Position numbers and translations under genes: made by a program. 64,000 nt of DNA. It comes from Uliginosibacterium sp. 31-16. GTDB taxonomy: Bacteria; Pseudomonadota; Gammaproteobacteria; Burkholderiales; Rhodocyclaceae. Shown here in pieces: positions 29,329 to 56,385 of the stretch (the stretch's first letter is position 1; each line of letters begins with the position of its first letter). The stretch spans positions 62,001 to 126,000 of the forward strand of contig NZ_JAVALZ010000001.1 of NCBI RefSeq assembly GCF_030730865.1. The letters are read 5' to 3'. The notes under the pieces are model-generated. The model made no database searches, was not told the origin of the DNA, and saw nothing but the letters and a program-made list of their open reading frames with translations.

Positions 29329-30735
29329 GTGAAAGCCTCCGAAATCACCGCTCTGCAAAACGAACCCGCCTGCTCCCACAACAAGGAGGAAAAGGCGGGA
29401 TGCGCGCGCCCTAAGCCGGGCGCCACCGCCGGCGGCTGTGTGTTCGATGGCGCGCAGATCGCGTTGCTGCCAGTGGCCGACGTCGCTCACATCGTGCACG
29501 GCCCGATCGGCTGCTCCGGCAGCTCCTGGGATAACCGCGGCACACGCTCCTCCGGGCCGACCCTGTATCGCATCGGCATGACGACCGACCTGACTGAACA
29601 GGATGTGATCATGGGCCGCGGCGAGAAGCGTCTGTTCCATGCCATCAAGCAGGCCATCGACGAACATGCGCCGGCTGCCGTATTCGTCTACACCACCTGT
29701 GTCACTGCCGTGATCGGCGACGACACGGCGGCCGTGTGCAAGGCCGCCGAGGCGCGCTGGGGCGTGCCGGTGGTGCCCGTCGATTGCGCCGGTTTCTACG
29801 GCAGCAAGAATCTGGGCAACCGCATTGCCGGCGAAACCATGCTCAAACATGTGATCGGCACGCGCGAACCAGACCCGGCGCCTTACATCCCCGGCATGCG
29901 CGTGCATGATGTGAACCTGATCGGCGAATACAACATCGCCGGTGAATTCTGGAACGTCGCGCCGCTTTTCGATGAGCTGGGCCTGCGCATCATCGGCTCG
30001 CTATCCGGTGACGCACGCTATCGCGAAATTCAGACCATGCATCGCGCCGAAGCAAGCATGGTGGTATGCGCCAAGGCACTGCTCAACGTGGCGCGCAAGC
30101 TCAATGAAAAATGGCAGGTCCCCTTCTTCGAGGGCAGCTTCTACGGCGTGATGGATACCTCACAGGCGCTACGCGATTTCGCCAGCCTGCTCCACGACGG
30201 CGATCTCGCAGAGCGCACCGAAGCCCTGATCGCCCGCGAGGAAGCTTGGATCAAAGCCGCGCTGCAGCCCTGGCGCGAGCGCCTCGCCGGCAAGCGGGTG
30301 CTGCTCTACACCGGCGGGGTGAAATCCTGGTCCATCGTCTCGGCCCTGCAGGATCTGGGCATGACCGTGGTGGCCACCGGCACCAAGAAGTCGACAGCGG
30401 AAGACAAGGCGCGCATCCGCGAGCTGATGGGTGAAGACACCCTGATGATCGACGAAGGCAGCCCGAAGGCATTGCTCGGCGCCTACAAGGATCTGCGAGC
30501 GGACATTCTCATCGCCGGTGGCCGCAATCTCTACACCGCGCTGAAGGCGCGCATCCCCTTCCTCGATATCAATCAGGAACGCGAGTTCGGCTACGCCGGC
30601 TACCGCGGCATGCTGGAGCTGGCCCGGCAACTTGCCCTCTCCATGGAAAGCCCGGTGTGGGAGGCCGTGCGCAAGCCTGCGCCCTGGGCAAAATCGAAAC
30701 AGGCCGGCACGCCAGTGGGGCTCAGCCATGACTGA
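29329..30735 (+). CDS. nifE: Nitrogenase FeMo-cofactor scaffold protein NifE
   Basis: Alpha subunit of the NifEN scaffold on which the iron-molybdenum cofactor matures. The 468-residue product has cluster-ligating cysteine regions [31 protein letters not shown] and [13 protein letters not shown], and HYNIAGEFW-like [12 protein letters not shown]. The start is GTG 29329; the first ATG is too far into the domain. The frame ends in SHD overlapping nifN by 8 bp. Driven by the sigma-54 promoter just upstream. Confidence 0.97.
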
Positions 30736-32140
30736 AATCATCAAACGCAGCAAGGCACTGTCGGTCAATCCGCTCAAGGCCAGCTCCACGCTGGGCGCTT
30801 CGCTGGCCTTCCTCGGCCTGCGCCGGGCGATCCCGATGATGCACGGCTCGCAGGGCTGTACTGCCTTTGGCAAGGTCTTTTTCGTGCGCCATTTCCGCGA
30901 ACCGATCCCGCTGCAGACCACCGCCATGGATCACGTCGCCACGGTGATGAGCTCGGACGAAAACGTCATCGAAGGCCTGCGCACCCTGTGCGAGAAAAGC
31001 CAGCCAGACGTCATCGGGCTACCCACCACCGGTCTGTCCGAAACCCAAGGCACGGATATCGCGCGGCTGGTACGCCAATTCCGCGAGCAGTATCCGCAAT
31101 TCGAATCAGTCAGCATCGTGCCGGTGAATACGCCGGATTACATCGGCAGCCTGGAAAGCGGTTTTGCTCAGGCGGTGGAAGCGATCATCGAGGCGCTGGT
31201 GCCGGTCTCCAGTTGCGTCGGCCGCCGCCGTCGACAGGTCAATGTGCTGGCCAACGCTTCACTCACGCCTGGCGATATCGACGCCATCCGCGACTGGATC
31301 GAAGCCTTCGGCCTGCGTGCCGTGGTGCTGCCGGACATCGGCGACTCGCTTGATGGCCACCTGATCGACGCCGAGCACACACCGCTGACGCTCGGCGGCA
31401 CCCCGCGCGAGGAAATCGCGGCGATGGGCGAGTCGATTGCCACGCTGGTCATCGGCGCCTCGCTGAACAAGGCGGCCGATGTACTGCGCACGCGCACTGG
31501 CGTACCGGATTACCGCTTCGACCACCTGATGGGACTGGATAGCTGCGATAGCTTCACCGAAATCCTGGCCGAGCTGGCCGGCGTGGCGGTTCCGGCGAAG
31601 ATTGAACGCCAGCGCGCCCAGCTGCAGGACGCAATGGTGGACACACACTTCATGACCGGTTTTCTGCGCGTGGCCCTTGCCGCCGAACCCGACCTGCTTG
31701 CCGGTCTGTGTGCCCTGCTTGGCGGCTGTGGTGCGGAAGTCGTCGCGGCAGCCACGCCAATTAATGCTGATGTCCTCAAGCGTTTGCCTATCGCTCAAGT
31801 TCACATCGGCGACCTGCAGGATCTGGAGCAGGCCGCACGCGCCCATCTCGCCCAGTTGCTGATCGGCAGCTCGCACGCCGTGCAGAGCGCCCAGCGCCTG
31901 GAGATTCCCCTGCTGCGCGCGGGCTTCCCGCTGTATGACCGGCTTGGCGATTTCGCCCGGCCGTGGGTGGGCTATCGCGCTGCGCGCCAGGCCCTGTTCG
32001 ACATCGCCAATCTCGTCCTGGAGCATCACCATGACACTCCCGCCTATCGCTCCGTTTTCTGGTCTGGCGGCCCCCGCGAGCGCGAAGAATCCGCCTCCTT
32101 CTCCGCTTCGCAAGCTCACGCTGGCCTGGTCCGCCACTGA
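30728..32140 (+). CDS. nifN: Nitrogenase FeMo-cofactor scaffold protein NifN
   Basis: Beta subunit of the NifEN scaffold. The 470-residue product opens with the typical [20 protein letters not shown] and [20 protein letters not shown], and includes [23 protein letters not shown] 30728 lies within the last codons of nifE. Its 3' end overlaps nifX by 110 bp in another frame, far more than the other junctions. Confidence 0.97.
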
Positions 32141-32582
32141 CCCTGAGCCGGGCACGCTACCGCCCGCTTTGAAAGTGGCTTTTGCGAGCCGCGACCGCGT
32201 GCACGTTGATCAGCACTTCGGCGCCGCAGAGGGTTTCGTCCTCTACACGGTCGACGCCGAGCGTGCCCGGCTGGCCGGTGTGCTGGAGTTCGCGGCAGAA
32301 GCCATGGATGGCAACGAGAACAAGCTGGCAGAAAAGATTTCCGCTCTGGCAGGCTGCGCCGCCGTCTATTGCCTCGCCGTCGGCGGCTCGGCCGTGCGCC
32401 AGTTGCTCGCCGCCGGCATCCAGCCGATGAAGCTGGACGAAGCCGAAGCCATCGAGCCCATCCTGCAGGCCATCAGTTGCGGCGTGCGTGAAGGCGGCGT
32501 CACCTGGATCGACAAGGCCCTGCGCCAACACGCCGATGACGGCCGCTTCGAGCGCATGGCCGAGGAAGGGTGGCAGGAATGA
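32031..32582 (+). CDS. nifX: Nitrogen fixation protein NifX
   Basis: Carrier of NifB-co and the VK-cluster between NifB and NifEN. The conserved domain LKVAFASRDRVHVDQHFGAA to the C terminus (dinitrogenase iron-molybdenum cofactor family) is preceded by a 45-residue proline/alanine/serine-rich leader. ATG 32031 has GGAG seven bases upstream, giving 183 residues, longer than most NifX. TTG 32169 or GTG 32175 would trim the leader but lack a ribosome site. The ATGA junction joins it to the next gene. Confidence 0.92.
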   Translation: MTLPPIAPFSGLAAPASAKNPPPSPLRKLTLAWSATDPEPGTLPPALKVAFASRDRVHVDQHFGAAEGFVLYTVDAERARLAGVLEFAAEAMDGNENKLAEKISALAGCAAVYCLAVGGSAVRQLLAAGIQPMKLDEAEAIEPILQAISCGVREGGVTWIDKALRQHADDGRFERMAEEGWQE

Positions 32583-33013
32583 TCGAACGCCAGGGCAGGA
32601 TCATCGCCATCCACGCAAATCACATGGAGCTCGCCGTGCAGCCCGAAGCCGCCTGTTCGGCCTGCGGCGCTCGTCAGGCCTGTCAGGGGGAGAAAAACCG
32701 CACCGTGCTGAGCCTGCCCCTGCAACCCGGCCTCGCGGCAGGCGATCAAGTCGCCCTGAGCATGGAGGCCGGCACACTGACACGCTCGGCCCTTCTGGCC
32801 TACCTGTTGCCGGCCATCACCCTGATCCTGGGTGCGCAGCTCGGAGATTGGATCGGCCGGAGCAACGTCTTCGCCATGAGCGGCGCCGCGCTTGGCCTGG
32901 CGGCCGGCCTGCTCGCCGCACGGCTACTGGCGGGCTTCTTCAGCCATGTCGAGCTGCAGCCCAATGTACACGCTTGTTTTCAGACCCCCACCCTTCGGAG
33001 CCCCGCACCATGA
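32579..33013 (+). CDS. RseC/MucC-like (SoxR-reducing system type) membrane protein in the nif operon
   Basis: A 144-residue protein of the RseC/MucC superfamily. A soluble N terminus has cysteines CSACGARQAC (C-x2-C-x5-C), then two membrane helices (about 66-88 and 95-120). RseC is linked to Rsx/Rnf-type SoxR-reducing complexes. Here it is coupled on both sides (ATGA) to nifX and the DUF269 gene, so it is part of the nif operon. The proposed role is maturation or tuning of the Rnf complex whose genes are at 60898-64000 (inference). Confidence 0.88.
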   Translation: MIERQGRIIAIHANHMELAVQPEAACSACGARQACQGEKNRTVLSLPLQPGLAAGDQVALSMEAGTLTRSALLAYLLPAITLILGAQLGDWIGRSNVFAMSGAALGLAAGLLAARLLAGFFSHVELQPNVHACFQTPTLRSPAP

Positions 33014-33462
33014 GCACGACCGACCCGCTTTTCGACACCGATTTCATGAAGGAAATGCTGCGCCAGGTGCGCGCACTGGACAGCTACGGCGTCTATGACG
33101 GCAAATCAGCCGAGCAATTGCTGGCCCCCTATGTGCTGAGCAAGGAGGCGCGCGCGGCCATCCCCATCCTGGGCGACCCGGACGCCGTCACCCTGTCGCG
33201 CGTACGCGCCTTCTACAACGCCATCGCCGTACTGGTCGAAAAAGAGTGCGGACAGATGGCCGTGCCGCTGGTGCATCTGTCGCACGAAGGCTTCGGACGC
33301 GTGCTGATCACGGTGGGCAAGCTCGTCGTACTGGACCGTGCATTGCGCGATGCGCACCGCTTCGGCTTCGAGAGCTTCTCGAAGATGAAGACGGAGGCCG
33401 ACAAGCAGCTCGGTCTGGCCATCGAAATCGTTGGCCGCTACGCCGAAGTCGCCGGACTCTGA
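33010..33462 (+). CDS. NifX-associated nitrogen fixation protein (DUF269)
   Basis: A 150-residue protein of the DUF269 family that accompanies nifX in most diazotrophs. Typical segments are LVRALDSYGVYDG-like VRALDSYGVYDGKSAEQLL, ILGDPDAVTLSRVRAFYNAI, and LVVLDRALRDAHRFGFESF. ATG 33010 overlaps the previous gene's stop (ATGA). The exact function is unknown; the family is linked with cofactor handling. Confidence 0.94.
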   Translation: MSTTDPLFDTDFMKEMLRQVRALDSYGVYDGKSAEQLLAPYVLSKEARAAIPILGDPDAVTLSRVRAFYNAIAVLVEKECGQMAVPLVHLSHEGFGRVLITVGKLVVLDRALRDAHRFGFESFSKMKTEADKQLGLAIEIVGRYAEVAGL

Positions 33463-33473
33463 GGAGCACGGTC

Positions 33474-33704
33474 ATGGACGAAGTGGCCCTGCGCGAACTG
33501 GACAAGGACGTCAAACGCCTGAAGCGGATCGCCTCGGAATGGGCAGGTCAGCTTCACGATCTGGTCGAAGACCGCCTGCCTGCGGCGTTTGAAGAAATTC
33601 CCGGAATATCCAAAAGCACTTACGAAGCCTGCAAGGCCTGGGCTGATGCAAACGCGCGTCTGCTCCATGCCCAGCGGGACGCCACACCCACCGAGACACC
33701 CTGA
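33474..33704 (+). CDS. CCE_0567-family nif-associated small protein
   Basis: A 76-residue helical protein. It resembles the CCE_0567/DUF683 family of small helical proteins found beside nifX and DUF269 (LRELDKDVKRLKRIASEWAG, LHDLVEDRLPAAFEEIP, ACKAWADANARL). A metal-binding function has been proposed for the cyanobacterial member. ATG 33474 has GAGGAG upstream, 11 bp after the DUF269 stop. Confidence 0.9.
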   Translation: MDEVALRELDKDVKRLKRIASEWAGQLHDLVEDRLPAAFEEIPGISKSTYEACKAWADANARLLHAQRDATPTETP

Positions 33705-33753
33705 TTCATCGACTTTCAACTCCCTGCTTATCACTCATATCTGGAGCTTTATC

Positions 33754-34053
33754 ATGGCTGAAATCACCGGCATCACCCGTGGGGGCACGACCTGGACCCC
33801 CGAATTCGCCGTCGCCCTGGACGCCAAGAAATGCATCGGCTGTGGCCGTTGCTACAAGGTGTGCACGCGCAGTGTGCTCGAACTGATCGACCGTAGCGAA
33901 GAAGACATCTCGGAAGACGATGACGACGACAGCGAAAGCATTTCGTCCGTCATGTCACTGGCCGACGCCATGGACTGCACCGGTTGCGGCGCCTGTTCAC
34001 GCGTCTGCCCGAAAGCCTGTTTCACCCACAGCGCAATGCCGGTCGGCGCCTGA
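33754..34053 (+). CDS. fdxB: Nif-specific ferredoxin III
   Basis: A 99-residue bacterial-type ferredoxin with two [4Fe-4S] motifs: CIGCGRCYKVC and CTGCGACSRVCPKAC. Between them is a long acidic loop (SEEDISEDDDDDSESI), longer than in clostridial ferredoxins and typical of FdxB. ATG 33754 has TGGAG upstream. It closes the nifENX operon and is a likely electron carrier between Rnf and nitrogenase or NifEN maturation. Confidence 0.95.
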   Translation: MAEITGITRGGTTWTPEFAVALDAKKCIGCGRCYKVCTRSVLELIDRSEEDISEDDDDDSESISSVMSLADAMDCTGCGACSRVCPKACFTHSAMPVGA

Positions 34054-34062
34054 GTAGCGATG

Positions 34063-34090
34063 CTGCGGGAGTGGCGCGCCGCTCCCGCAG
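34063..34090 (+). terminator. Hairpin after fdxB
   Basis: CTGCGGGAG / CTCCCGCAG, a perfect 9-bp stem with a 10-base loop, 9 bases after the fdxB stop. No U-run follows. It is the likely 3' end of the nifENX operon. Confidence 0.55.
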
Positions 34091-34136
34091 ACGTCCCGAT
34101 TCATGCCGATGCTATGAACACCTGATCTGCAACCCG

Positions 34137-34252
34137 CCTGTAACCCGCCTGCAGCGTGCGTCTTCAGGCATCTACCCCGAAAACAGGCGCCCAGCCATCA
34201 TCTCCAGCATGCCAGGCTGAAAACCATTTACAGAAGCGGCTCTTCGGGCATG
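34137..34252. repeat. GCGGCTCTTC-type dispersed repeat, copy 6
   Basis: Begins CCTGTAACCCGCCTGCAGCG, includes GCGTCTTCAGGCAT and ends AGAAGCGGCTCTTCGGGCAT. It lies between fdxB and the convergent secreted protein gene. Confidence 0.75.
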
Positions 34253-34278
34253 GTCTGTACAAGCAGCGCACACTAATG

Positions 34279-34317
34279 AAAACGGCCATTTGCCCGCAAT
34301 CGCGCGCAAATGGCCGT
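34279..34317 (-). terminator. Intrinsic terminator of the poly-serine protein gene
   Basis: A 12-bp perfect stem (ACGGCCATTTGC / GCAAATGGCCGT) followed on the minus strand by TTTTCATT, 20 bp after the stop codon of the gene at 34338. Classic intrinsic terminator form. Confidence 0.8.
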
Positions 34318-34337
34318 CGCTTCAAACTACAGGATGC

Positions 34338-36158
34338 TTACTGGTAGTATTTCTCGTACAGCGGTGCCGTACCGGTCACGCCTTCCAGCAGGTGCACGCG
34401 GTAGTCGTACTTGGCCTTGCGCGTCGCCTCACCGTTGTAGATGTAATCAGTGCTGGTCGCCACGCCCACCACCACACCGTTCTTCGGAGCCTTGCTCAGA
34501 TCGAGGCAGGACTCACCGCTCTCCACCGGCTTGCTGTACACCGCCGTACCATCGGCAGCGCGATACGCCAGCTGGAAGCGCATGTTGTTGCCCAGCGGCT
34601 GGAAGTTCACGCGCACCTTGTTGCCACTCACCTTCAGCGGAATCTGGTTGGCGCCGCTCCAGCCAGGCAGGGTGTCGGTCGCCGGAATCAGCGTCGTGCC
34701 ACTTTGCACCGTGGAAGCGTAGAAGCTCAGCTTGTGGCTGGTCTGCTTGTTCATGCCGCCGGCCGAACTCTCGGAGACGATGGTACGCGCCCAGTTGTCA
34801 TTGATTGGCACCTTGAAGCCGGCAGTCCACTCGCCGAAATCAACCATCGCCTGACGCGCGCGATATTCGGCAATCAGGCTGCGGGTCTGTGCATCGCCCA
34901 GGCCATCAGCCAGCGAGGCAAGGATGTTGTTCTTGGTGCCCTTCTTCCAGATCCAGGCATTCGAGCCCTTGGAGAGGTAGAGCGCAATGAAGTGCGAGAA
35001 AGCCGCGTTGTACTGATTGCCGCCGAGGTATTCGCGCCAGGTGCCGATCTGCAGGCCGGCAGCCGTCTCCATGTGCACACCTTCAGCGTTCGGGCCGCCA
35101 AACGTGCCGTCCTGCAGCCAGCCGCTGTAGTTCTCGATCGGCATGTGCGGAGCCAGGAAGGGAGCGCCATCCAGGAAGCCCACACCCCGCACGCCCGTGC
35201 GATTGCCGGTCATGGTCATCTGCAGCCAGGTGTTGGAGCCTTCGTTGAACCAGGCCGCCTTGCCGCCCATGCTGGCCATGATGGCGTGAATGTATTCATG
35301 CGTCACGCCACCGAATTCGCTGGCGGTGATCACCGGGTAATACGACAGCAGCACCATCGGGTAGCCGTTGAGGCCGCTCTGCCAGCCGCCCTTCTCGGTG
35401 TTGGCGGCACTGTCGGTGCATAGCCCCGAACCGAACAGGTACACGTTGCTGAAGTAGCCTTGCTGCTGCAGCTTGTCGACCGGCCAGCCCATGACGTTGT
35501 GGATGTAATCAGCATCCTTGTTCATGCTGGCGAGCAGCGCATCGATGTGCGCATCGGTGATCGCTGGATTGCGGTTCTTGCCCCAGATGAAGGCAAAGCG
35601 GCCGGAGGTTTTGTAACCAGCGACCAGGCTGGCGTTACAGCCCAGATACAGCTTGAAGTTCGCCGGATTCACCGTGGCGTTGGTGGTGTCGGTCTTGATG
35701 TCGTAGTTCAGGTTCGGCGTGTAGCCCGGCGCCGTATAAGGCGAGCACTGTGCAGCCGTGCCGCCGCTGGAGCTGGAGGAAGAGCTGGAAGACGATGAAG
35801 AACTGGACGAGGAGCTGCTCGACGAGGAGCTGGAGGAAGAACTGCTGCTCGAAGAGCTCGATGAGGAGCTGCTGCTTGACGAGGAGCTGGAGCCCGAAGC
35901 ACCACTGGGCACGGAGCATTCATTCACGCCTCCGGCAATACGCCCGCCAAAGGTGGACTCGTTGCACATGAACGAACCACTCAGCGATTTGTAGAGGAAC
36001 ACGCCGGACCGGCCGAACGCCACCTTGGTGACAGCCGCCACAGAGCAGCTTTTCCCTTCCTTGCAGATCGTGGTGTAGCCATTCGGGCGATTAGCCGCCG
36101 CTGCAGGAAAACTCAGCAGCGCGGCTGTCAGCCCCAGAAACAGGGATCTCAAAATCAT
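34338..36158 (-). CDS. Secreted HExxH protein with poly-serine linker
   Basis: A 606-residue exported protein. A Sec signal peptide (about 1-21) is followed by a four-cysteine domain to residue 86 (NGYTTICKEGKSC, VAFGRSGVFLYKSLSGSFMC), a run of 42 serines (about 90-131) written with all six serine codons, and a large domain with HEYIH at 287-291, a zinc-metallopeptidase-type HExxH. The N-terminal domain plus serine linker resembles secreted polysaccharide-degrading enzymes of Saccharophagus/Cellvibrio. Substrate unknown; peptidase activity is inference. It separates two nif operons. Confidence 0.85.
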   Translation of the reverse strand: MILRSLFLGLTAALLSFPAAAANRPNGYTTICKEGKSCSVAAVTKVAFGRSGVFLYKSLSGSFMCNESTFGGRIAGGVNECSVPSGASGSSSSSSSSSSSSSSSSSSSSSSSSSSSSSSSSSSSSSSSSSSGGTAAQCSPYTAPGYTPNLNYDIKTDTTNATVNPANFKLYLGCNASLVAGYKTSGRFAFIWGKNRNPAITDAHIDALLASMNKDADYIHNVMGWPVDKLQQQGYFSNVYLFGSGLCTDSAANTEKGGWQSGLNGYPMVLLSYYPVITASEFGGVTHEYIHAIMASMGGKAAWFNEGSNTWLQMTMTGNRTGVRGVGFLDGAPFLAPHMPIENYSGWLQDGTFGGPNAEGVHMETAAGLQIGTWREYLGGNQYNAAFSHFIALYLSKGSNAWIWKKGTKNNILASLADGLGDAQTRSLIAEYRARQAMVDFGEWTAGFKVPINDNWARTIVSESSAGGMNKQTSHKLSFYASTVQSGTTLIPATDTLPGWSGANQIPLKVSGNKVRVNFQPLGNNMRFQLAYRAADGTAVYSKPVESGESCLDLSKAPKNGVVVGVATSTDYIYNGEATRKAKYDYRVHLLEGVTGTAPLYEKYYQ

Positions 36159-36432
36159 CGAAGCCTCCAGATACAGAAATTCTCAGGCATCCCCGCGACG
36201 ACGCACCCTGTCGCCGTGAAATGCCATCGGTTTTTTAGGAACACACATGCTCTGGGAGAACATCCCGGGTGTCCACGCAAAATCCTCTCAACTGCCGGTT
36301 CGCCCCGACATAAGGAGCCGGGCAGTCAGTCACCGCGCCGGCACCACCAGAGCCCCCACGGCCCGGACACGCGCCTCAGCGTGGCGCATGACGCTCTCCC
36401 CTGCAGGGCGGAAGTCCGCGCCGGGGCATTCT

Positions 36433-36448
36433 TGTCTGCTTTGAGACA
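36433..36448 (+). promoter_or_regulatory. NifA upstream activating site 1 for nifU
   Basis: TGTCTGCTTTGAGACA, exact TGT-N10-ACA, inside the palindrome CTTGTC...GACAAG. It lies about 140 bp before the -24 element. Confidence 0.7.
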
Positions 36449-36506
36449 AGGCTGTCTGACCTCTCCAGCATCTCCCGGCCCGGAGGGGTTTTCACGCTCC
36501 CGTCAA

Positions 36507-36522
36507 TGTCGCAAGTGTGACA
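36507..36522 (+). promoter_or_regulatory. NifA upstream activating site 2 for nifU
   Basis: TGTCGCAAGTGTGACA, exact TGT-N10-ACA, about 67 bp before the -24 element, the usual spacing. Confidence 0.75.
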
Positions 36523-36588
36523 AGAGGCTCATCTCACTCCGCCACAAGACCCGCGCCCATACTCATTCTTCAGGCAGCACCCGGTGCG

Positions 36589-36604
36589 TGGCACATCCCT
36601 TGCA
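36589..36604 (+). promoter_or_regulatory. Sigma-54 promoter of nifUS
   Basis: TGGCACATCCCTTGCA is a perfect match to the sigma-54 consensus TGGCAC-N5-TTGCA. Transcription would begin near 36615, leaving a 120-base leader before nifU. Confidence 0.9.
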
Positions 36605-36734
36605 TTAAGCCTTGTACCCAACAGGAGAGTGAGCAGGCTGACCCTGTTTCGTTACGGTTTCGAGACTCCCAGCCTGACCTGCCGAATCATCGTTGCGTTC
36701 ATCGCACTGCCCGTTTGTCATCAAGGAGCCCGTC

Positions 36735-37649
36735 ATGTGGGATTACACCGACAAGGTCAAGGAACACTTCTTCAACCCGCGTAACGCAGGCGTCCTCGAA
36801 AATGCCAATGCCGTTGGCGATATCGGCTCCATCCAGTGCGGCGATGCGTTACGCCTGATGCTCAAGGTCGAGCCCGAAACCGACGTCATCCTCGATGCGA
36901 GCTTCCAGACTTTCGGCTGCGGCTCGGCGATTGCGTCGAGCTCCGCGCTGACCGAAATCATCAAGGGCATGACGCTGGACGAGGCCTGGAAGGTCAGCAA
37001 CCAGGACATCGCCGAGTATCTGGATGGTTTGCCGCCCGAGAAGATGCACTGCTCGGTGATGGGGCGTGAGGCGCTGCAGGCGGCGATCTCCAACTATCGC
37101 GGCGTCGAATGGAAAGACGATCACGAAGAGGGCGAGCTGATCTGCAAATGCTACGCGATTGATTCAAAGCTGATCGAGCAGGTGGTACGCGACAACGGCC
37201 TGAGCACGGTGGCCGAAGTCACCAACTACACCAAGGCCGGCGGCGCCTGTGCGGCCTGTCACGAGAAGATCGAAGACGCGCTGGTACGCATCCTCAAGGA
37301 CACCGGCAAGGCGCCGGTGATCGAGCGCAGCATCCCCACGCAGCCCCCGGCCGCCGCCCCCGCCGTCCCCCCACTCGCCGCCGGCGACAAGCCGAAACTG
37401 ACCAATCTGCAGCGCATGCGCCGGATCGAGGAAATCATCGAATCCGTGCGCCCCACGCTGCAACGCGACCATGGCGACATCGAGATCGTCGACATCATCG
37501 GCAAGAACATCTACGTCAATCTGAAGGGCGCCTGCATGGGCTGCGCGCTCGAAGCCGCGACGCTCGGCGGCATCCAGCAGAAGCTCTTCGAGGAGCTGGG
37601 CGAGTACGTGCGCCTGCTTCCAGCCAGCATGATGGAAATGAGCAACTGA
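36735..37649 (+). CDS. nifU: Nitrogenase Fe-S cluster scaffold NifU
   Basis: Modular scaffold for Fe-S clusters of nitrogenase. The 304-residue product has an IscU-like N-terminal domain with C35, C62 and C106, a central [2Fe-2S] domain with C137, C139, C172 and C175 (ICKCYAID and ACAACHEK), a proline/alanine linker ([17 protein letters not shown]), and a C-terminal Nfu domain with C267-M-G-C270. ATG 36735 follows CAAGGAG. All ligands are present. NifS, 30 bp downstream, supplies sulfur. Confidence 0.97.
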
Positions 37650-37679
37650 ACCCGCCAGACGCCACAGAGAGGCATCGCC

Positions 37680-38888
37680 ATGAAACCCATCTATCTCGAC
37701 AACAACGCCACCACCGCCTGTGATCCGGCGGTGGTCGAAGCCATGCTGCCATTTTTCACCGAGCAGTTCGGCAACGCTTCTTCCATCCACAGCTTCGGCA
37801 ATCAGGTGGGTCAGGCGCTGAAGAAGGCGCGCGCGCAGATCCAGGCGCTGCTTGGCGCCGAGCAGGAGTCCGAGATCATCTTCACCTCGGGCGGCACCGA
37901 ATCGGACAACACCGCCATCCTCTCCGCCTTGAAAGCGCAGCCCGAGCGCAATCAGGTGATCACCACGGTGGTCGAACACCCGGCCGTGCTGGCCCTGTGT
38001 GACCGGCTGGAGAAGGACGGCTACGTGGTGCACAAGCTGCGTGTGGATGGCCGGGGCCGCCTCGATCTGGACGAATACAAGTCGATGCTGAACGACCGCG
38101 TCGCCATCGTCTCGGCAATGTGGGCCAACAACGAGACCGGCACGATCTTTCCGGTCGAGCAGATGGCCGAGATAGCCCATGCCCGTGGCATCCAGTTTCA
38201 CACCGATGCGGTGCAGGCGGTGGGCAAGATCCCGATCGACCTCAAGCGCAGCCAGATCGACATGCTCTCGCTGTCCGGCCACAAGCTGCACGGCCCCAAG
38301 GGCATCGGCGTGCTATACCTGCGGCGCGGCACGCGTTTTCGCAGCCTGATCCATGGTGGCCAGCAGGAACGCGGTCGCCGCCCCGGCACCGAGAACTCGC
38401 CCGCCATCATGGGTCTGGGCAAGGCGGCAGAACTAGTCATGCAGCACTTCGAAACCGAGAACAACGAAGTCCGCTACCTGCGCGACAAGCTGGAGAAAGG
38501 CATCCTCGCCAAGGTACCGCGCGCCTACCCGACCGGCGACCTGCACAACCGTCTGCCGAATACCAGCAGCATCGCCTTCGAGTTCGTCGAGGGCGAAGGC
38601 ATCCTGTTGATGCTCAACAAACTGGGCATCGCCGCTTCCTCGGGTTCGGCCTGCACCTCGGGCTCGCTGGAGCCCTCGCATGTCATGCGCGCCATGGGCA
38701 TTCCCTACACCGCCGCCCACGGCACGATCCGCTTCTCGCTGTCGCGCTACAACACGCTGGCAGAGGTGGAGCGGGTGATCGAAGCCGTGCCGCCGATCAT
38801 CGCCCAGCTGCGCAAGATCTCGCCCTACTGGGGCGAAGCCGGCCCGGTGGCCGACCCGGAGAAAATGTTCGCGCCGGCCTACGGCTGA
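37680..38888 (+). CDS. nifS: Cysteine desulfurase NifS
   Basis: PLP enzyme that mobilises sulfur from L-cysteine for NifU. The 402-residue product has the opening IYLDNNATTACDPAVVEAML, the PLP lysine K202 in LSGHKLHGPKG and the active-site cysteine C325 in SSGSACTSGSLEPSHV. ATG 37680 has CAGAGAGG upstream. A GC-rich hairpin follows it. Confidence 0.97.
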   Translation: MKPIYLDNNATTACDPAVVEAMLPFFTEQFGNASSIHSFGNQVGQALKKARAQIQALLGAEQESEIIFTSGGTESDNTAILSALKAQPERNQVITTVVEHPAVLALCDRLEKDGYVVHKLRVDGRGRLDLDEYKSMLNDRVAIVSAMWANNETGTIFPVEQMAEIAHARGIQFHTDAVQAVGKIPIDLKRSQIDMLSLSGHKLHGPKGIGVLYLRRGTRFRSLIHGGQQERGRRPGTENSPAIMGLGKAAELVMQHFETENNEVRYLRDKLEKGILAKVPRAYPTGDLHNRLPNTSSIAFEFVEGEGILLMLNKLGIAASSGSACTSGSLEPSHVMRAMGIPYTAAHGTIRFSLSRYNTLAEVERVIEAVPPIIAQLRKISPYWGEAGPVADPEKMFAPAYG

Positions 38889-39073: not shown

Positions 39074-42000
39074 ATGAGCCAGAACATCCCGCCCCGGAAC
39101 AGTGCCAGCATCGACCCCGACGCCATCCAGCGCGTGGTCAAGGTGCGGCGCGACTACAACACCTGGGTCGCCAACGAGAGCATTGAGGACTACGCCCTGC
39201 GCTACACGCCCAAGAGCTTTCGCAAGCTCTCGGAATGGCAGGTGGCGAACACCGCGTTTGGCGCAGCCGCCTTTCTGGTGCTGGAGGCCGTCGGGGCGAC
39301 CCTGCTGGTCAATTACGGATTCACCAACGCCGCGCTCGCCATCCTCGCCACCGGGCTGATCATCTTCCTGTGTGGCACCCCGATCAGCTTGTACGCCGCG
39401 CGCTACGGGCTGGACATGGATCTGCTCACGCGCGGTGCGGGCTTCGGTTATATCGGCTCGACCATCACCTCGCTGATCTACGCCAGCTTCACCTTCATCT
39501 TCTTCGCGCTCGAAGCGGCGGTGATGGCCTATGCGCTGGAACTCGCCTTCGACATTCCGCCGGCCTGGGGCTACCTGCTGTGCGCACTCGCGGTGATTCC
39601 ACTGGTGACCCACGGCGTGACCATGATCAGCCGCCTGCAGCGCCTCACCCAGCCGGTATGGCTGATCCTGCTGGCCCTGCCCTTCATCTTCGTGCTCGCC
39701 AAAAACCCCGGCGTTCTCGGCGAACTGAGTCAGTACGCCGGCACCAGAGGCGAAGGTGGCGGCTTCAACATGCATCTGTTCGGCGCCGCGCTCACCGTGG
39801 GCATTGCGCTGATCACCCAGATGGGCGAGCAGGTCGATTACCTGCGCTTCATGCCGGCACGTACAGAGAGCAATCGCAAAAGCTGGCTCGCCGCCGTGCT
39901 GGTCGGCGGGCCGGGCTGGGTGCTGATGGGCGTGGCCAAGATGCTGGGCGGCTGCCTGCTGGCGTATCTGGCAATCCGCAACTCGGTGCCGATCGACCGG
40001 GCCGTCGACCCGAACCAGATGTACCTCGTCGGTTTCGAGGCCGTGTTCAGCCATCCCGGCTGGGCCGTGGCGGCCACCGCGCTGTTCGTGATCATTTCGC
40101 AGCTCAAGATCAACGTCACCAATGCCTACGCGGGCTCACTGGCGTGGAGCAATTTCTTCGCCCGCCTCACCCACAGCCACCCCGGCCGCGTGGTGTGGAT
40201 GGTGTTCAACACCGTCATCGCGCTGATGCTGATGGAGCTGGACGTTTTTCAGGCGCTGGGGCAGGTGCTTGGGCTGTATTCCAACATCGCGATTGCCTGG
40301 CTGGTGGCGGTTGTCGCCGATCTGGTCATCAACAAGCCACTGGGCCTGTCGCCCCCGGGCATCGAATTCAAGCGCGCGCATCTCTACGACATCAACCCGG
40401 TGGGCGTGGGTGCCATGCTGATTGCGTCAACGCTGTCGATCATGGCCTACCTCGGCGCTTTCGGCGCCAACGCGCAGGCCTTCGCCAGCTTCATCGCGCT
40501 GGCGACAGCGCTGATGGCTTCGCCACTGATTGCCTGGGCGACCGGGGGCAAGTATTACCTCGCGCGCAAGCCTGATATTTGTGGTGGTGGCGCCCCTCCT
40601 CAAACCCCTCCCGACCTCCCCTTGACAGGGGAGGAGCAAACCAAGCCGAGCCTGATCGAACACCCTCCCCTGTCAAGGGGAGGGCTGGGGAGGGGTTTAA
40701 ATGCTCGCACCTGCGTCATCTGCGAGCGCGCCTATGAAGGTGACGACATGGCGCATTGCCCGGCGTATCAGGGCCACATCTGCTCGCTGTGCTGCTCGCT
40801 GGATGCGCGCTGCCACGATCTGTGCAAGCCCGATGCGCGATTGTCCGCACAGTGGTCAGCCGGAATGCGCCACCTCCTGCCGCGCCCGATGTGGCCCTAC
40901 ATCGACAGCGGGCTGGGCCACTACCTGTTGCTGATGGGCGCCGTGGTCGCAGGCCTCGCCGCCCTGCTCGGCGTGCTGTATTACCAGCAGGCCCAGACGC
41001 TCGCCGATCCCGTGCTGCTGCCCGCATTGAGATCCGGTTTCATCAAGGTGTTCAGCGTCCTGCTGCTGGCCAGCGGCATCATCGCCTGGTGGCTGGTGCT
41101 CACCCACAAGAGCCGCCAGGTGGCGCAGGAGGAGTCCAATCGCCAGACCCATCTGCTGATGCGCGAGATCGCCTCCCACCAGCAGACCGACGAAGCCCTG
41201 CAGGAGGCCAAGCGCATCGCCGATGCGGCCAATCAGGCCAAGAGCCGCTACATCACCACCATCAGTCACGAGCTGCGCACGCCGCTGAACTCGATCCTCG
41301 GTTACGCCCAGATACTCGATGGCGACCCGACCATCCCCAGCCATCGCCAGCAGGCGATCCGCGTGATCCGCCGCAGCGGCGATCATCTCCTGTCTTTGAT
41401 CGAGGGCACGCTGGACATCGCCCGCATCGAAGGCGGCAAGCTCAGCCTGGACACCCGCGCCATCGATTTCCGCGCGTTGCTCGAACAGCTCGTCCAAATG
41501 TTCAGCCTGCAGGCCGAGCACAAGGGTCTCGCCTTCGATTACCAGTGCGCCAGCGAACCGCCCGCCGTGGTGCGGGCCGACGAAAAGCGCCTGCGCCAGA
41601 TCCTCATCAACCTGCTCGGCAACGCGGTGAAATTCACCCGCGAGGGCGGCGTTAAATTCCGCCTGCGCCACAGCCGTGACATGGCCACCTTCGAGATCGA
41701 AGACAGCGGCCCCGGCATCACCCCCGAGGAACTGGAGCGCATCTTCGAGCCCTTCTCGCGCGGCAGCAGTGCGCAAAGCACCAGCGGCACCGGACTTGGG
41801 CTGACCATCGCACGCATGCTCACCGATCTGATGGGCGGCGAACTCACCGTGAAGAGCACGCCCGGCAGCGGCACGCTGTTCACCGTGCGCCTGTTCCTGC
41901 CGCAAGTGCATGCTGCTCAGGCCGCGCAGGAACTGCCCCGGCGCCATTACACGGGCTATGCCGGCGAACGCCGGCGCATCCTGATCGTGGACAACGAAGC

Positions 42001-42610
42001 CACCGACCGCGAACTGCTCGCCAGCGTGCTCGCACCGCTCGGCTTCGAGCTGGATCAGGCCGCCTCCGGCATCGAATGCCTGGAGGTGCTGCCGCGCTTC
42101 CAGCCGCACCTCATCTTCATGGATCTGGCCATGCCCGGCATCGACGGCTGGGAGACCATCCGCCGCATCCGCGCCGGCAAGCTGAGCGAAGCGAAGATCG
42201 CCATCCTCTCGGCGAATGCCTTCGACAAGGGCCTGGAGAACGACGCCGGCATCCCCACCGAGGACTTCATCCTCAAACCCTTCAAGGTGGCCGAGCTGCT
42301 CGAATGGCTGGGCCACAAGCTGGCGCTGGAATGGCTGGAGACCGCCCGCGAAGCCGCGCCGGACGGACTTATGCAGACCATGCCCCGGGAAGCCGCGCCC
42401 GCATTGCCTGCGCGCGAGCTCCTCGAACAGCTCGCCCATCAGCTCAACCTCGGCTACGTGCGTGGCGTGCACGCCGTGCTGGACCGGATCGCCACCGATG
42501 CCACCGGCCAGCGCTACGCCGAGCCGCTTCGAAAAATGCTCATGGATTTCGAACTGGACACCATGACGACACTCATCAAGAGGGATCTCGATGCCGCCAC
42601 TTGCCATTGA
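39074..42610 (+). CDS. NCS1-type permease fused to hybrid histidine kinase
   Basis: A 1178-residue one-protein sensor. Residues 1 to about 500 are a nucleobase:cation symporter-1 (purine/cytosine permease type) with some twelve membrane segments (RGAGFGYIGSTITSLIYASF). A cysteine-rich stretch (about 546-590, CVICERAYEGDDMAHC and SLCCSLDARCHDLC) and two more membrane helices follow. Then come a histidine kinase with phospho-acceptor histidine about 731 (SHELRTPLN), N-box (NLLGNAVKFT) and G-boxes (GTGLGLTIARML), and a receiver domain with phospho-acceptor Asp about 1017 (MDLAMPGIDG). Residues about 510-542 come from an inserted palindromic repeat. Transported or sensed solute unknown; purine, hydantoin, allantoin or urea are candidates. 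Confidence 0.9.
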   Translation: MSQNIPPRNSASIDPDAIQRVVKVRRDYNTWVANESIEDYALRYTPKSFRKLSEWQVANTAFGAAAFLVLEAVGATLLVNYGFTNAALAILATGLIIFLCGTPISLYAARYGLDMDLLTRGAGFGYIGSTITSLIYASFTFIFFALEAAVMAYALELAFDIPPAWGYLLCALAVIPLVTHGVTMISRLQRLTQPVWLILLALPFIFVLAKNPGVLGELSQYAGTRGEGGGFNMHLFGAALTVGIALITQMGEQVDYLRFMPARTESNRKSWLAAVLVGGPGWVLMGVAKMLGGCLLAYLAIRNSVPIDRAVDPNQMYLVGFEAVFSHPGWAVAATALFVIISQLKINVTNAYAGSLAWSNFFARLTHSHPGRVVWMVFNTVIALMLMELDVFQALGQVLGLYSNIAIAWLVAVVADLVINKPLGLSPPGIEFKRAHLYDINPVGVGAMLIASTLSIMAYLGAFGANAQAFASFIALATALMASPLIAWATGGKYYLARKPDICGGGAPPQTPPDLPLTGEEQTKPSLIEHPPLSRGGLGRGLNARTCVICERAYEGDDMAHCPAYQGHICSLCCSLDARCHDLCKPDARLSAQWSAGMRHLLPRPMWPYIDSGLGHYLLLMGAVVAGLAALLGVLYYQQAQTLADPVLLPALRSGFIKVFSVLLLASGIIAWWLVLTHKSRQVAQEESNRQTHLLMREIASHQQTDEALQEAKRIADAANQAKSRYITTISHELRTPLNSILGYAQILDGDPTIPSHRQQAIRVIRRSGDHLLSLIEGTLDIARIEGGKLSLDTRAIDFRALLEQLVQMFSLQAEHKGLAFDYQCASEPPAVVRADEKRLRQILINLLGNAVKFTREGGVKFRLRHSRDMATFEIEDSGPGITPEELERIFEPFSRGSSAQSTSGTGLGLTIARMLTDLMGGELTVKSTPGSGTLFTVRLFLPQVHAAQAAQELPRRHYTGYAGERRRILIVDNEATDRELLASVLAPLGFELDQAASGIECLEVLPRFQPHLIFMDLAMPGIDGWETIRRIRAGKLSEAKIAILSANAFDKGLENDAGIPTEDFILKPFKVAELLEWLGHKLALEWLETAREAAPDGLMQTMPREAAPALPARELLEQLAHQLNLGYVRGVHAVLDRIATDATGQRYAEPLRKMLMDFELDTMTTLIKRDLDAATCH
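40602..40698. repeat. Palindromic repeat inserted in frame in the permease-kinase gene
   Basis: Arms 40602-40634 and 40663-40698 are near-perfect inverted copies, with the core CCTCCCCTGTCAAGGGGAGG and outer AAACCCCTCCC / GGGAGGGGTTT. They flank 28 unrelated bases. The reading frame stays open through it and encodes a proline/glycine/leucine-rich linker between the permease part and the cysteine-rich part. Confidence 0.9.
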
Positions 42611-43526
42611 CCGCAGCAACACCAACATCGTGCTGATTGTCGATGACGTACCGGACAACCTCTCGGTGCTGCACGATGCGCTGGACGAGTCCGGCTACTC
42701 GGTGCTGGTCGCCATCAACGGCGAATCGGCGCTGACCCGCGCGCGCCAAAGCCTGCCGGACATCATCCTGCTCGACGCGATGATGCCCGGCATGGACGGC
42801 TTCGAAGTGGCCCGGCGGCTGAAAGCCGATTTCGCCACGGCTCACATCCCGATCATCTTCATGACCGGCCTGACCGAAACCGAGCACATCGTCGCCGCCT
42901 TCAAGGCCGGCGGCACCGATTACGTAACCAAGCCCGTGCGCACCGGCGAAGTCATCGCCCGCATCGCCACGCATCTGGCCAGCGCCCGCCAGATGACCCA
43001 GGCCCGCAGCGCTCTTGATGCCTTCGGCCAGGCCACGCTGTCGGTAGTCCCGGAGACCGGGCGGATCACCTGGCAGACGCCGCTCGCGCGCGACCTGATC
43101 GGGCGCTACTTCAACATCCACATCGAACTCGTCCCGCCCATCGTGCGCAACTGGCTGCGCGCCAGCATCGACAGCCTGCGCAAGCAACCGGGCGTGCCGC
43201 TGCAGCCGCTCAACGTGATCCAGGCCGCCAGCCGCGTGATCTTCACCCTGCACAGCCAGAGCAACGAAGATGAATGGCTGCTGGTGCTGCGCGAGGAAAG
43301 CGACGCGGCCCAGATCGAAGCGCTGATCTCGGCCTTCAGCCTGACCCGCAAGGAAGCCGAGGTGCTCTACTGGGTGTGCAAGGGCAAGACCAGCCCGGAC
43401 ATCGGCGACATCCTCGGCTCCAGCCCGCGCACGGTGAACAAGCACCTCGAACACATCTACGAAAAGCTCGGCGTGGAAACCCGCACGGCGGCAGCCAATC
43501 TGGCGCAGGAAAAATTGCGGCGCTGA
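42591..43526 (+). CDS. LuxR-type response regulator
   Basis: A 311-residue two-component regulator: receiver domain (about 12-128) with IVLIVDDVPDNLSVLHDAL and phospho-acceptor Asp in ILLDAMMPGMDG, a middle region of about 110 residues without a clear family, and a C-terminal LuxR-type helix-turn-helix (about 250-308: LTRKEAEVLYWVCKGKTSPD, SSPRTVNKHLEHIYEKLGV). It overlaps the hybrid kinase gene by 20 bp and is surely its partner. ATG 42591 is the start of the receiver-containing frame. Confidence 0.93.
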   Translation: MPPLAIDRSNTNIVLIVDDVPDNLSVLHDALDESGYSVLVAINGESALTRARQSLPDIILLDAMMPGMDGFEVARRLKADFATAHIPIIFMTGLTETEHIVAAFKAGGTDYVTKPVRTGEVIARIATHLASARQMTQARSALDAFGQATLSVVPETGRITWQTPLARDLIGRYFNIHIELVPPIVRNWLRASIDSLRKQPGVPLQPLNVIQAASRVIFTLHSQSNEDEWLLVLREESDAAQIEALISAFSLTRKEAEVLYWVCKGKTSPDIGDILGSSPRTVNKHLEHIYEKLGVETRTAAANLAQEKLRR

Positions 43527-48151: not shown

Positions 48152-48314
48152 CCGCCGAGCGCCCCTTCGTCCTCAGCACTCATTGCTCAATCCTCTGCCG
48201 CAGGCAGCCACTACGCACTCTGACGTATTCAAGCCAAGAGGCTGACTCCCTACAGTGGCATCACGCGGCAAGGACATGCCGCCAGCACACCACCAATTCG
48301 CAAGGGAGCCTCAC

Positions 48315-49589
48315 ATGCAATCTCGTCGCAGCTTCATCAAGGTCTCGGCCCTTTCCGCCGCCATGGCGCTGGCCGGTCTCGCATCCTTCGGCGTGTCTGC
48401 CGCCGAAACCATCAAGGTGGGCGTGCTGCACTCGCTCTCCGGCACGATGGCCATTTCCGAAACCGTGTTGAAAGACACTGTGCTGATGGCGATTGATGAA
48501 ATCAACGCCAAGGGCGGCGTGCTCGGCAAGAAGCTGGAGCCGGTGGTGGTCGATCCGGCCTCCAACTGGCCGCTGTTCGCCGAAAAGGCCCGCCAGCTGA
48601 TCTCCAAGGACAAGGTTGCGGTGACCTTCGGTTGCTGGACCTCGGTGTCGCGCAAGTCGGTGCTGCCGGTGTATGAAGAACTGAACTCGCTGCTGTTCTA
48701 CCCGGTGCAGTACGAAGGTGAAGAGCTGTCGAAGAACGTGTTCTACACGGGCGCTGCACCGAATCAGCAAGCCATTCCGGCCGTGGAATACCTGATGAGC
48801 AAGGACGGCGGCGGCGCCAAGCGCTTCGTGCTGCTGGGCACCGACTATGTGTATCCGCGCACCACCAACAAGATCCTGCGCGCCTTCCTGAAGAGCAAGG
48901 GCGTGGCGGATGCGGACATCATGGAGGAATACACCCCCTTCGGTCACAGCGATTACCAGACCATCATCGCCAAGATCAAGAAGTTCTCCTCCGAAGGCAA
49001 GAAGACTGCTGTGGTGTCGACCATCAACGGCGACTCCAACGTGCCCTTCTACAAGGAACTGGGCAACCAGGGCCTGAAGGCGACCGACGTGCCGGTGGTG
49101 GCTTTCTCGGTGGGTGAAGAAGAACTGCGCGGCGTGGATACCAAACCGCTGGTGGGCCACCTGGCCGCCTGGAACTACTTCATGAGCATCAAGAACCCGA
49201 CCAACACCGCGTTCGTGAAGCAATGGAGCGACTACGCCAAGGCCAAGGGCATCGCCGGCCACAAGGACAAGCCGCTGACCAATGACCCGATGGAAGCCAC
49301 TTACATCGGCATCAAGATGTGGGCCCAGGCGGTCGAGAAGGCCAAGAGCACCGATACCGACAAGGTGATCGCCGCGATGGCCGGCCAGACCGTGAAGGCC
49401 CCGGGCGGTTTCGTCTCCACCATGGACCCGAAGAACCACCACCTGCACAAGCCGGTGTTCATCGGCGAGATCAAGGCGGATGGTCAGTTCAAGGTGGTGT
49501 GGAAGACGCCGGGCCCGGTCAAGGCTCAACCCTGGAGCCCGTTCGTTGAAGGCAACGACAAGAAGAAGGATGAGCCGGAGAAGAAGTAA
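48315..49589 (+). CDS. urtA: Urea ABC transporter substrate-binding protein
   Basis: Periplasmic urea receptor, 424 residues. The N terminus has a twin-arginine motif SRRSFIKV followed by a hydrophobic stretch and AAETIKVG, so export by the Tat route is likely. The mature part has VGVLHSLSGTMAISE and GCWTSVSRKSVLPVYEELN, typical of UrtA. ATG 48315 follows AAGGGAG. First gene of urtABCDE, with the urease genes downstream. Confidence 0.96.
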   Translation: MQSRRSFIKVSALSAAMALAGLASFGVSAAETIKVGVLHSLSGTMAISETVLKDTVLMAIDEINAKGGVLGKKLEPVVVDPASNWPLFAEKARQLISKDKVAVTFGCWTSVSRKSVLPVYEELNSLLFYPVQYEGEELSKNVFYTGAAPNQQAIPAVEYLMSKDGGGAKRFVLLGTDYVYPRTTNKILRAFLKSKGVADADIMEEYTPFGHSDYQTIIAKIKKFSSEGKKTAVVSTINGDSNVPFYKELGNQGLKATDVPVVAFSVGEEELRGVDTKPLVGHLAAWNYFMSIKNPTNTAFVKQWSDYAKAKGIAGHKDKPLTNDPMEATYIGIKMWAQAVEKAKSTDTDKVIAAMAGQTVKAPGGFVSTMDPKNHHLHKPVFIGEIKADGQFKVVWKTPGPVKAQPWSPFVEGNDKKKDEPEKK

Positions 49590-49696: not shown

Positions 49697-49738
49697 CTGT
49701 CTCGTTTGACCCATCGCGTCACCATGCCACGAGCCGCC

Positions 49739-51355: not shown

Positions 51356-51362
51356 GAAGATC

Positions 51363-52462: not shown

Positions 52463-52466
<4 letters not shown>
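51363..52466 (+). CDS. urtC: Urea ABC transporter permease UrtC
   Basis: Second membrane subunit of the urea importer, 367 residues with about nine hydrophobic segments. It has the LivM-type core (LAMDLVWGYTGILSLGHGIF) and VGGRGTLIGPLIGAGLINGV. ATG 51363, seven bases after the urtB stop, follows AAGAAG. Confidence 0.95.
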
Positions 52467-53329
<863 letters not shown>

Positions 53330-53338
53330 CCGGGATAT

Positions 53339-53388
53339 GTAGGGTGCGCACTGCGCACCGCATGGATGGTGCGCAGTGCGCACCCTAC
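53339..53388. repeat. TAGGGTGCGC-type repeat, copy 2
   Basis: Two perfect 21-base inverted arms (53339-53359 and 53368-53388; GTAGGGTGCGCACTGCGCAC is the start) with an 8-base loop. It ends nine bases before the urtE start, where it has displaced a normal ribosome site. It would form a strong hairpin in the mRNA. Confidence 0.9.
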
Positions 53389-53397
53389 GGAACGAAT

Positions 53398-56382: not shown

Positions 56383-56385
56383 TTC

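Follow-up and report, generated by a model that had tools for sequence, protein, structure and literature searches.

Which signal is read by a histidine kinase that carries a transporter fold at its N-terminus, and which genes does it control? This question is raised by a gene within a 64,000-nucleotide stretch of Uliginosibacterium sp. 31-16 (contig NZ_JAVALZ010000001.1, positions 62,001 to 126,000 of the forward strand), referred to here, at its full length, as the window. On the + strand, window positions 39074 to 42610 encode an 1178-residue fusion of an NCS1-type (nucleobase:cation symporter) permease with a hybrid histidine kinase, and this gene overlaps that of a LuxR-type response regulator. 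The reading preferred here, to which a probability of about 0.72 is given, is that the fusion is a transceptor: a permease of an NCS1-derived urea and short-amide lineage, joined to a hybrid kinase, would drive urt, ure and fmd genes through the LuxR-type regulator. The fusion belongs to a conserved family of NCS1 transceptor-like kinases that is tied to the use of urea and short amides and is undescribed in the literature searched.

Architecture of the fusion and its regulator

The fusion was delimited from its open reading frame, Pfam matches, an AlphaFold model and a fold search. A single frame without internal stop spans the permease half to the receiver. The first-pass annotation, made from the sequence alone, had described a permease, a cysteine-rich linker, a kinase and a receiver in one protein, and this description is confirmed. 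The caveat it attached, separate translation of the permease half, does not apply here, the frame being free of stops; stand-alone relatives of the permease occur elsewhere. The domain search that it had suggested, run with Pfam, places three domains of a hybrid histidine kinase on one chain: HisKA, the dimerisation and phosphoacceptor domain (residues 722-788, positions 41237-41437, PF00512, E-value 1.6e-16), HATPase_c, the kinase domain (residues 836-942, positions 41579-41899, PF02518, 4.6e-32), and a Response_reg receiver (residues 969-1077, positions 41978-42304, PF00072, 3.8e-18). The first 700 residues, permease half included, gave no Pfam match above the cut-off, and neither did the linker between permease and kinase, any likeness to STAC being judged here by Pfam only. 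Preceding the kinase are the permease module (about residues 37-498, positions 39182-40567), an eight-cysteine motif, and two further hydrophobic helices (residues 613-642 and 646-680, positions 40910-41113) that are visible in the model and in the hydropathy profile and lead into a signalling helix.

The regulator gene (positions 42591-43526, + strand) encodes 311 residues with a receiver and a GerE helix-turn-helix, both found by Pfam, as in the LuxR/NarL type. Its ATG lies at 42591 and the TGA of the kinase gene ends at 42610, so that the overlap of 20 base pairs (bp) reported earlier is correct. A chance or mis-joined reading frame was considered and rejected in view of 137 permease-bearing relatives with frames of at least 1050 residues and the eight-cysteine pattern. 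Strict regular expressions found the kinase H-box in 113 of these 137 and the G2 box in 62; whole-protein Pfam scans covered the window protein and an Acinetobacter member (locus L094). In P. kondratievae the fusion is 873 residues long and has a separate regulator gene next to it, and forms of 885 and 894 residues exist at two further loci. Since these three forms are too short to hold a receiver, as judged by length alone, the kinase may be able to do without the receiver it carries.

The permease module has a predicted NCS1 fold

The model of residues 1-700, predicted by AlphaFold from 80 aligned sequences, has a pLDDT of 78.7 and a pTM of 0.82. Foldseek ranks 1 to 5 for this model are all Mhp1 and CodB, and VIA-align superposes model residues 37-494 on CodB (7qoa) with Z 34.2 and a root-mean-square deviation of 3.4 over 395 aligned residues, Mhp1 reaching Z 27.6-30.4 and the next row 24.2. 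The predicted model thus contains the LeuT-type core of NCS1 structures, at 14-16% identity to Mhp1 and CodB in the VIA alignments. The NCS1 profile PF02133 does not match the window protein. It does match a stand-alone relative from Klebsiella pneumoniae (locus L164; E-value 1.4e-9, 37.7 bits against a cut-off of 23.5) and a distant stand-alone NCS1 protein (L159; 3.6e-9), five other stand-alone sisters scanned being unmatched. Neither the N-terminal profile nor the K. pneumoniae sister found a solved structure by sequence. Because the predicted structure matches Mhp1 and CodB best and a stand-alone relative matches PF02133, the N-terminal half of the fusion is assigned to the NCS1 fold on modelling grounds; the first-pass annotation was therefore right about the family, by a route other than a Pfam match of the window protein. 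Mhp1 and CodB, which transport hydantoins and cytosine, are themselves stand-alone carriers without a kinase. Membership in the SLC5/STAC group was considered and rejected, there being no match to the SSS family and the best folds being NCS1, with the sodium/sialic acid symporter 5nv9 lower at Z 21.6.

Distribution and origin of the fusion

The combination had earlier been called less familiar, which understates its frequency. The permease module is matched in 20 of 61 relatives, 18 strongly, in 15 of 274 class-level genomes at 1e-30 and in 52 of 398 phylum-level genomes, and nearly all strong matches sit in open frames of about 900 residues or more, a length sufficient for a fusion. Matches also occur in 537 plasmid records, of which 342 are from Klebsiella; a few of these matches are stand-alone permeases. 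A search of genome contigs gave 549 candidates, the best 80 of which were retained. On sequence evidence the fusion family is widespread among Proteobacteria, and its members appear in public records as 'ATP-binding protein', 'hybrid sensor histidine kinase' or 'ArcB'.

In a FastTree phylogeny of 97 permease modules, the 86 fused rows form one clade (support 97). Nearest to it are the stand-alone permeases of loci L105 and L169 (support 86), followed by eight other stand-alone permeases. The tree took 18 of 80 betaproteobacterial loci and omitted L058, L061, L095, L150, L156 and a cut copy of L111, which are truncated or broken or gave no usable frame; it was rooted on the distant NCS1 protein L159, whose very long branch makes the rooting weak. 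As a general rule, NCS1 proteins are stand-alone carriers. From the tree and this rule, and with the reserve that the long outgroup branch imposes, it appears that the permease came first and was captured by a kinase later, and once. A fusion and a stand-alone permease lie side by side at L094, L105 and L169. In one genome (G309), a distance of about 9.5 kb separates two fusion genes (L109 and L111). The record holding L094 is named 'Acinetobacter phage MD-2021a' and looks like bacterial chromosome rather than phage, with katE, rhtB, lrp and other genes.

Neighbouring genes and phylogenetic profile

Genes for urea or amide use recur around the fusion. Among 60 spread-out loci, urt, ure or formamidase/amidase genes flank 51, with urt at 44, ure at 10 and formamidase, amidase or AmiS at 34, compared with 1 of 40 stretches of 20 kb drawn at random from these genomes, that one (L208) overlapping another kinase locus. 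The 60 loci, about one for each genus with some second copies added, were chosen by hand from the relative, class and phylum searches; they include the stand-alone L159 and the overlapping neighbours L109 and L111 of a single genome, and 17 strong places from the 61 relatives (the own genome and two weak matches not counted), 14 from the phylum set and 1 from the class set are outside them. Among the 80 closest betaproteobacterial relatives, 45 have urea or amide genes nearby (32 of 54 among loci with full flanks), as do 10 of the 11 named fused records; the latter were chosen for variety, and two of them are Sinorhizobium meliloti (S. meliloti). The arrangements vary: a divergent ureA-ureC, a divergent urtABCDE with formamidase, a convergent urt, or a downstream urt-ure series as in the window. 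This variety argues against a single inherited block.

The stand-alone permeases point in the same direction. Urease, formamidase or amidase genes lie near five of seven named loci where no kinase adjoins. The K. pneumoniae sister L164 (6956-8563, 'cytosine permease') directly follows ureG in a urease cluster and is probably, from this context, a misnamed urea permease; the Acinetobacter johnsonii sister precedes ureE, those of Moraxella and Tsukamurella lie beside and near fmdA, respectively, and that of Arthrobacter U41 precedes an amidase gene. A single cluster in Methylovirgula contains the fusion and its regulator together with a stand-alone permease, fmdA and an amidase gene.

The phylogenetic profile, also suggested by the first-pass annotation, was computed over the 61 relatives, and UrtA and UreC track the fusion. 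All 18 fusion-bearing genomes have both, although for each protein one genome has no more than a sub-threshold fragment; of the 43 genomes without the fusion, 12 have UrtA (one of them below the cut-off) and 13 have UreC. The Fisher values of 6.6e-8 and 2.2e-7, respectively, ignore kinship and so overstate significance. At the strict curated cut-off, UrtA and UreC are each found in 17 of 18 genomes with the fusion, compared with 11 of 43 (UrtA) and 13 of 43 (UreC) without it; the 43 fusion-less relatives include G049 and G057, which have weak partial matches.

Formamidase/amidase/AmiS genes outnumber urease genes at the 60 loci (34 to 10), and amidase genes at L100 and L169 have an upstream dyad of the kind described below, which would suit a kinase whose true ligand is a short amide such as formamide or acetamide, with urea operons as secondary targets. 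In the window's own branch the balance is the reverse: the 80 betaproteobacterial relatives have urease genes at 34 loci, urt at 15 and formamidase/amidase at 1, and we regard a short amide as an unlikely primary signal. In the window itself, nif and arg genes adjoin the fusion, and their control by the pair would be the most local explanation. Homologues of NifU, NifS and ArgC were found in the flanks covered of 0 of 158 other members or relatives, on which an association of the family with nif or arg genes was rejected, and the sole dyad of the window lies at urtA, so that such control has next to no chance of being the pair's role. Of the earlier suggestion that the site between nifS and the arg and urea genes points to a nitrogenous solute, the solute is well supported, and the neighbourhoods, the profile, the stand-alone sisters and the dyad narrow it down to urea or a short amide; the weight placed on nif and arg does not.

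A dyad upstream of urtA accompanies the kinase

Inverted repeats were counted in the 300 bp that precede the kinase gene in 68 diverse members. TACG-N8-CGTA comes first with 29 of 68, compared with 7-10 of 68 for the best dyad in each of five first-order resamplings; the longer TACGTC-N4-GACGTA occurs in 14 of 68, compared with at most 2. Other dyads from a count within the betaproteobacterial group were set aside, close relatedness inflating them. In the window the dyad occurs once (19 times in the genome), as TACGCACTCTGACGTA at positions 48212-48227, a predicted operator ending 27 bp ahead of the annotated start of urtA (48255-49589, + strand; urea ABC transporter substrate-binding protein, TIGR03407, 2.3e-179).

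In genomes with the kinase, 18 of 25 urtA loci have the dyad upstream of urtA, compared with 0 of 15 in genomes without the kinase (Fisher 5.9e-6); counted by genome, the dyad is present in 15 of the 17 that could be assessed and in 0 of 12, respectively. Related genomes are mutually dependent, so that the Fisher values given for the dyad overstate significance. These 40 loci are all 38 over the TIGR03407 cut-off plus two that score below it, the split G003:C29 and G050:C54; the urtA of G005 is cut by a contig edge. Sets used for discovery and for testing overlap where urtA is divergent from the kinase gene (e.g. G012 and G043), and are separate for urt-ure operons. The dyad is also found at urtA where the fusion is on a different contig of a draft assembly (G007, G016, G019 and G036), and in G032, where 23 kb of one contig separate fusion and urtA. 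Across 150 loci, 68 of 75 dyad sites lie at most 500 bp upstream of inferred starts of urtA, ureA, fmdA, amiE, amiS or the permease/kinase gene; the control stretches, 796 kb in all, contain 3 sites, and at the 80 betaproteobacterial loci 16 of 19 sites are just upstream of urtA. In S. meliloti ml45 the dyad stands 98 bp before urtA, and strain 1021 has the same site. Azospirillum and Methylovirgula have it ahead of an amidase gene as well, and a Klebsiella plasmid has it between urtA and the fusion gene.

Co-occurrence does not identify the protein that binds the dyad, and another regulator, inherited together with the operon, could occupy it while the fusion acts elsewhere. The dyad is missing at the 15 urtA loci of kinase-less relatives and at seven fetched stand-alone permease loci without an adjacent kinase, and at L094 it sits in the gap between divergent kinase and permease genes; in light of these observations, a separate dyad-binding regulator would be a distinctly improbable explanation.

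Several observations weigh against regulation of urea and amide genes by the fusion pair, or limit its reach. No urea or amide gene is found in the flanks of 9 of the 60 diverse loci (one, L159, having no fusion) and 35 of the 80 betaproteobacterial loci, some of these on short contigs; at L094 the permease itself is the sole such gene, and the stand-alone permeases of Streptomyces and Arthrobacter NicSoilB11 have none adjoining. Seven of the 25 urtA loci of kinase-bearing genomes lack the dyad, and with one mismatch allowed the contrast falls to 19 of 25 loci with the kinase and 2 of 15 loci without it (p 2e-4). The dyad was absent from the stretches examined of two of the 11 named fused records (L099 and L102). 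Finally, no dyad precedes the kinase gene of the window, and just 1 of 78 betaproteobacterial relatives has one there. With these points counted, regulation of urea and amide genes by the fusion pair is strongly supported by the comparative sequence evidence.

In the transceptor reading, urea, external or entering, would bind the pocket of the permease, formamide or acetamide probably serving as ligands too in other members. The ligand-induced movement would be relayed via the eight-cysteine finger and the two extra helices to the kinase, which would phosphorylate the overlapping LuxR-type regulator. The latter would then bind TACG-N8-CGTA dyads and activate genes for the uptake and hydrolysis of urea and amides; the target in the window would be the urtA promoter at 48212, at the head of urtABCDE-ureDABCEFG. 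The ligand, the signal flow, the phosphotransfer, the binding of regulator to dyad, and activation rather than repression are what we infer.

Residues separating fused and stand-alone permeases

Ten core residues (E147, Q249, E252, Q253, D255, Q343, N347, N350, Y352 and S355) are invariant across all 86 fused and all 10 stand-alone rows. The two groups differ at four positions: fused rows have F67 (86/86), L70 (82/86), E71 (86/86) and A353 (86/86), as opposed to Y67, D70, F or Q71, and S353 in stand-alone rows, each 10/10. The model places residues 67-71 at the break of the first helix and 353 in a long helix (328-366), so that the separating residues probably sit in helices 1 and 8, the helix numbering being inferred. 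In carriers of the LeuT fold, helices 1 and 8 frame the sodium site. The changes fit a carrier turned receptor as far as sequence comparison goes, but changes that mark a group can be neutral; CodB, a genuine carrier, has alanine at the position aligned with 353, and A353 alone proves nothing.

The shared core residues would also suit a bifunctional transceptor, in which the permease half still transports urea or an amide and the signal follows transport rather than binding alone. There is a precedent in CbrA, which transports histidine through its SLC5 half, according to the portion of PMC13022988 available. Against continued transport stand the consistent differences in helices 1 and 8 and the fact that, among the 61 relatives, every fusion-bearing genome also owns a dedicated UrtA. 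Transport-coupled signalling is thereby a possible version of the transceptor, held to be less probable than its opposite.

The cysteine motif and an inserted repeat

The cysteine-rich linker noticed in the first-pass annotation is real. Its eight cysteines (residues 547-584, positions 40712-40825, + strand) follow the pattern C-x2-C-x11-C-x7-C-x2-C-C-x5-C-x3-C, and a slightly looser form is present in 137 of the 137 relatives of at least 1050 residues. It is a probable metal-binding finger. When the segment was folded alone, the fold search gave nothing below an E-value of 0.69; RING, PHD and ZZ fingers are among the weak rows, a modelled likeness that is suggestive at most. The full motif is also found on the stand-alone permeases of L105 and L169, and a shorter four-cysteine tail ends five others (Acinetobacter, Klebsiella, Moraxella and Streptomyces rows), with remnants of it in the Arthrobacter and Tsukamurella rows. 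Because stand-alone permeases already carry the four-cysteine tail or the full motif, the latter seems to have come along with the permease lineage rather than to be a new bridge.

Its conservation in all 137 long relatives could alternatively mean that the permease is a mere anchor, and that a metal, redox or other cue is read by the cysteine motif or the two-helix segment. Urease requires nickel, which would give a metal sensor a reason to be there. The tails of five stand-alone permeases and the full motif of two others mark it as a trait of the permease lineage, not of the kinase, and the invariant columns of an 82-row N-terminal alignment all fall within the permease, in an alignment biased by rows that lack the later parts. 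A mere anchoring role is thus judged very unlikely, if marginally less so than a separate regulator at the dyad.

In the window protein, a 96-bp palindromic repeat (positions 40603-40698, + strand), of which the genome holds several further copies on both strands, is inserted in frame in the linker between permease and cysteine motif. It lengthens the linker of the kinase gene by about 32 residues and is not in the aligned relatives displayed.

Relation to known systems

The comparison with CbrA made earlier is apt as an analogy. In Pseudomonas, CbrA likewise carries an N-terminal transporter domain on a histidine kinase and controls nutrient genes via a response regulator (PMC13022988, available portion). 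The differences are several: CbrA has an SLC5 fold with STAC and PAS domains, whereas the window fusion has an NCS1 module, an eight-cysteine motif and two hydrophobic helices (STAC compared by Pfam only); its partner is sigma54-dependent rather than LuxR-type; and it serves histidine and carbon control rather than being linked to urea and amide genes. CrbS (acetate) and RpuS (pyruvate) are also transporter-derived sensor kinases of nutrient two-component systems, and differ from the window fusion by belonging to the SLC5/STAC family and by their ligands, as far as the accessible parts of PMC5715377 and PMC9100948 describe them. Closer by descent are the urease-cluster sisters of K. pneumoniae (WP_002916878) and A. 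johnsonii (WP_052024140), annotated 'cytosine permease' or 'allantoin permease', which have a four-cysteine tail, no kinase, and D70 and S353 in place of L70/E71 and A353. They are 75% identical to each other, and the A. johnsonii sister is 43-46% identical to the window module.

Members of the family have been encountered before. In S. meliloti, SMb20609/SMb20610 is one; its fused frame starts at pSymB 1622168, 95 bp from where the PhaR motif given for SMb20609 begins. These genes are called "functionally uncharacterized" and grouped with urease subunits in one protein module, and PhaR binds their promoter (PMC12542648, in the part available). The accessible part of PMC13296017 mentions a LuxR-family two-component regulator near a urt operon, and a legend there also names a hybrid kinase; no function is assigned. 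A urea transport cluster on K. pneumoniae plasmids has been suggested to play a role in urinary colonisation (PMC5506382, PMC13060141); the terms 'histidine kinase' and 'two-component' are absent from the main texts of these two papers. The Klebsiella IncF plasmid of L097 has a cluster of the same make-up, to judge by the same main texts. It carries, at 8989-13252, an intact fusion and an intact regulator frame, with the dyad, urtABCDE and formamidase adjacent. The regulator frame is missing from the PLSDB gene table. Among 5426 E. coli genomes, 6 match the L097 fusion region at 99% identity or more, and in 4 the match covers at least 80% of it. Nothing on the fusion family was found in the accessible parts of PMC5333837 and PMC11109136, and no published function for it was found in the openly licensed PMC literature, which is not proof of absence.

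A broader claim, for which we see about even odds, is that this is a distinct architecture of transporter-derived sensor kinase and also a two-component receptor for urea and short amides, unreported in the literature searched: a cysteine-finger NCS1 urea permease, captured once by a kinase and altered near its ion site (D70 to L70/E71, S353 to A353), would now control urt, ure and fmd as well as amidase genes throughout the Proteobacteria, Klebsiella plasmids included, and its sisters would form an unrecognised NCS1 branch of urea and amide permeases misnamed as cytosine or allantoin permeases. If so, many bacteria would gain a known regulator for their use of urea, formamide and other amides. 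For CbrA, the available text of PMC13022988 describes as unresolved the way in which a kinase is switched by transport or binding in a transporter fold; for this question, the fusion family offers natural pairs of fused and stand-alone permeases, residues that separate the two groups, and a short dyad.

Surroundings in the window

Upstream of the fusion, NifE, NifN, NifU and NifS are encoded at window positions 29329-38888, and the organism may therefore be a diazotroph. The regulator gene is followed by a LysR gene, argC and a gene for a HAD hydrolase, and then by urtABCDE and ureDABCEFG on one strand. The genes urtB, urtC, urtD and urtE (49706-54090, + strand) score over the cut-offs of TIGR03409, TIGR03408, TIGR03411 and TIGR03410, respectively. 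In line with them, ureD-ureA-(hupE/ureJ-like)-ureB-ureC-ureE-ureF-ureG occupy 54226-60180 (+ strand); ureC, ureD, ureB, ureE and ureF were identified with NCBIfam and Pfam models and ureG by a match to UreG-type GTPases, ureA and hupE being read from the translation only. In the UrtB of the window (49706-51355), about 255 residues precede the match to the UrtB model.

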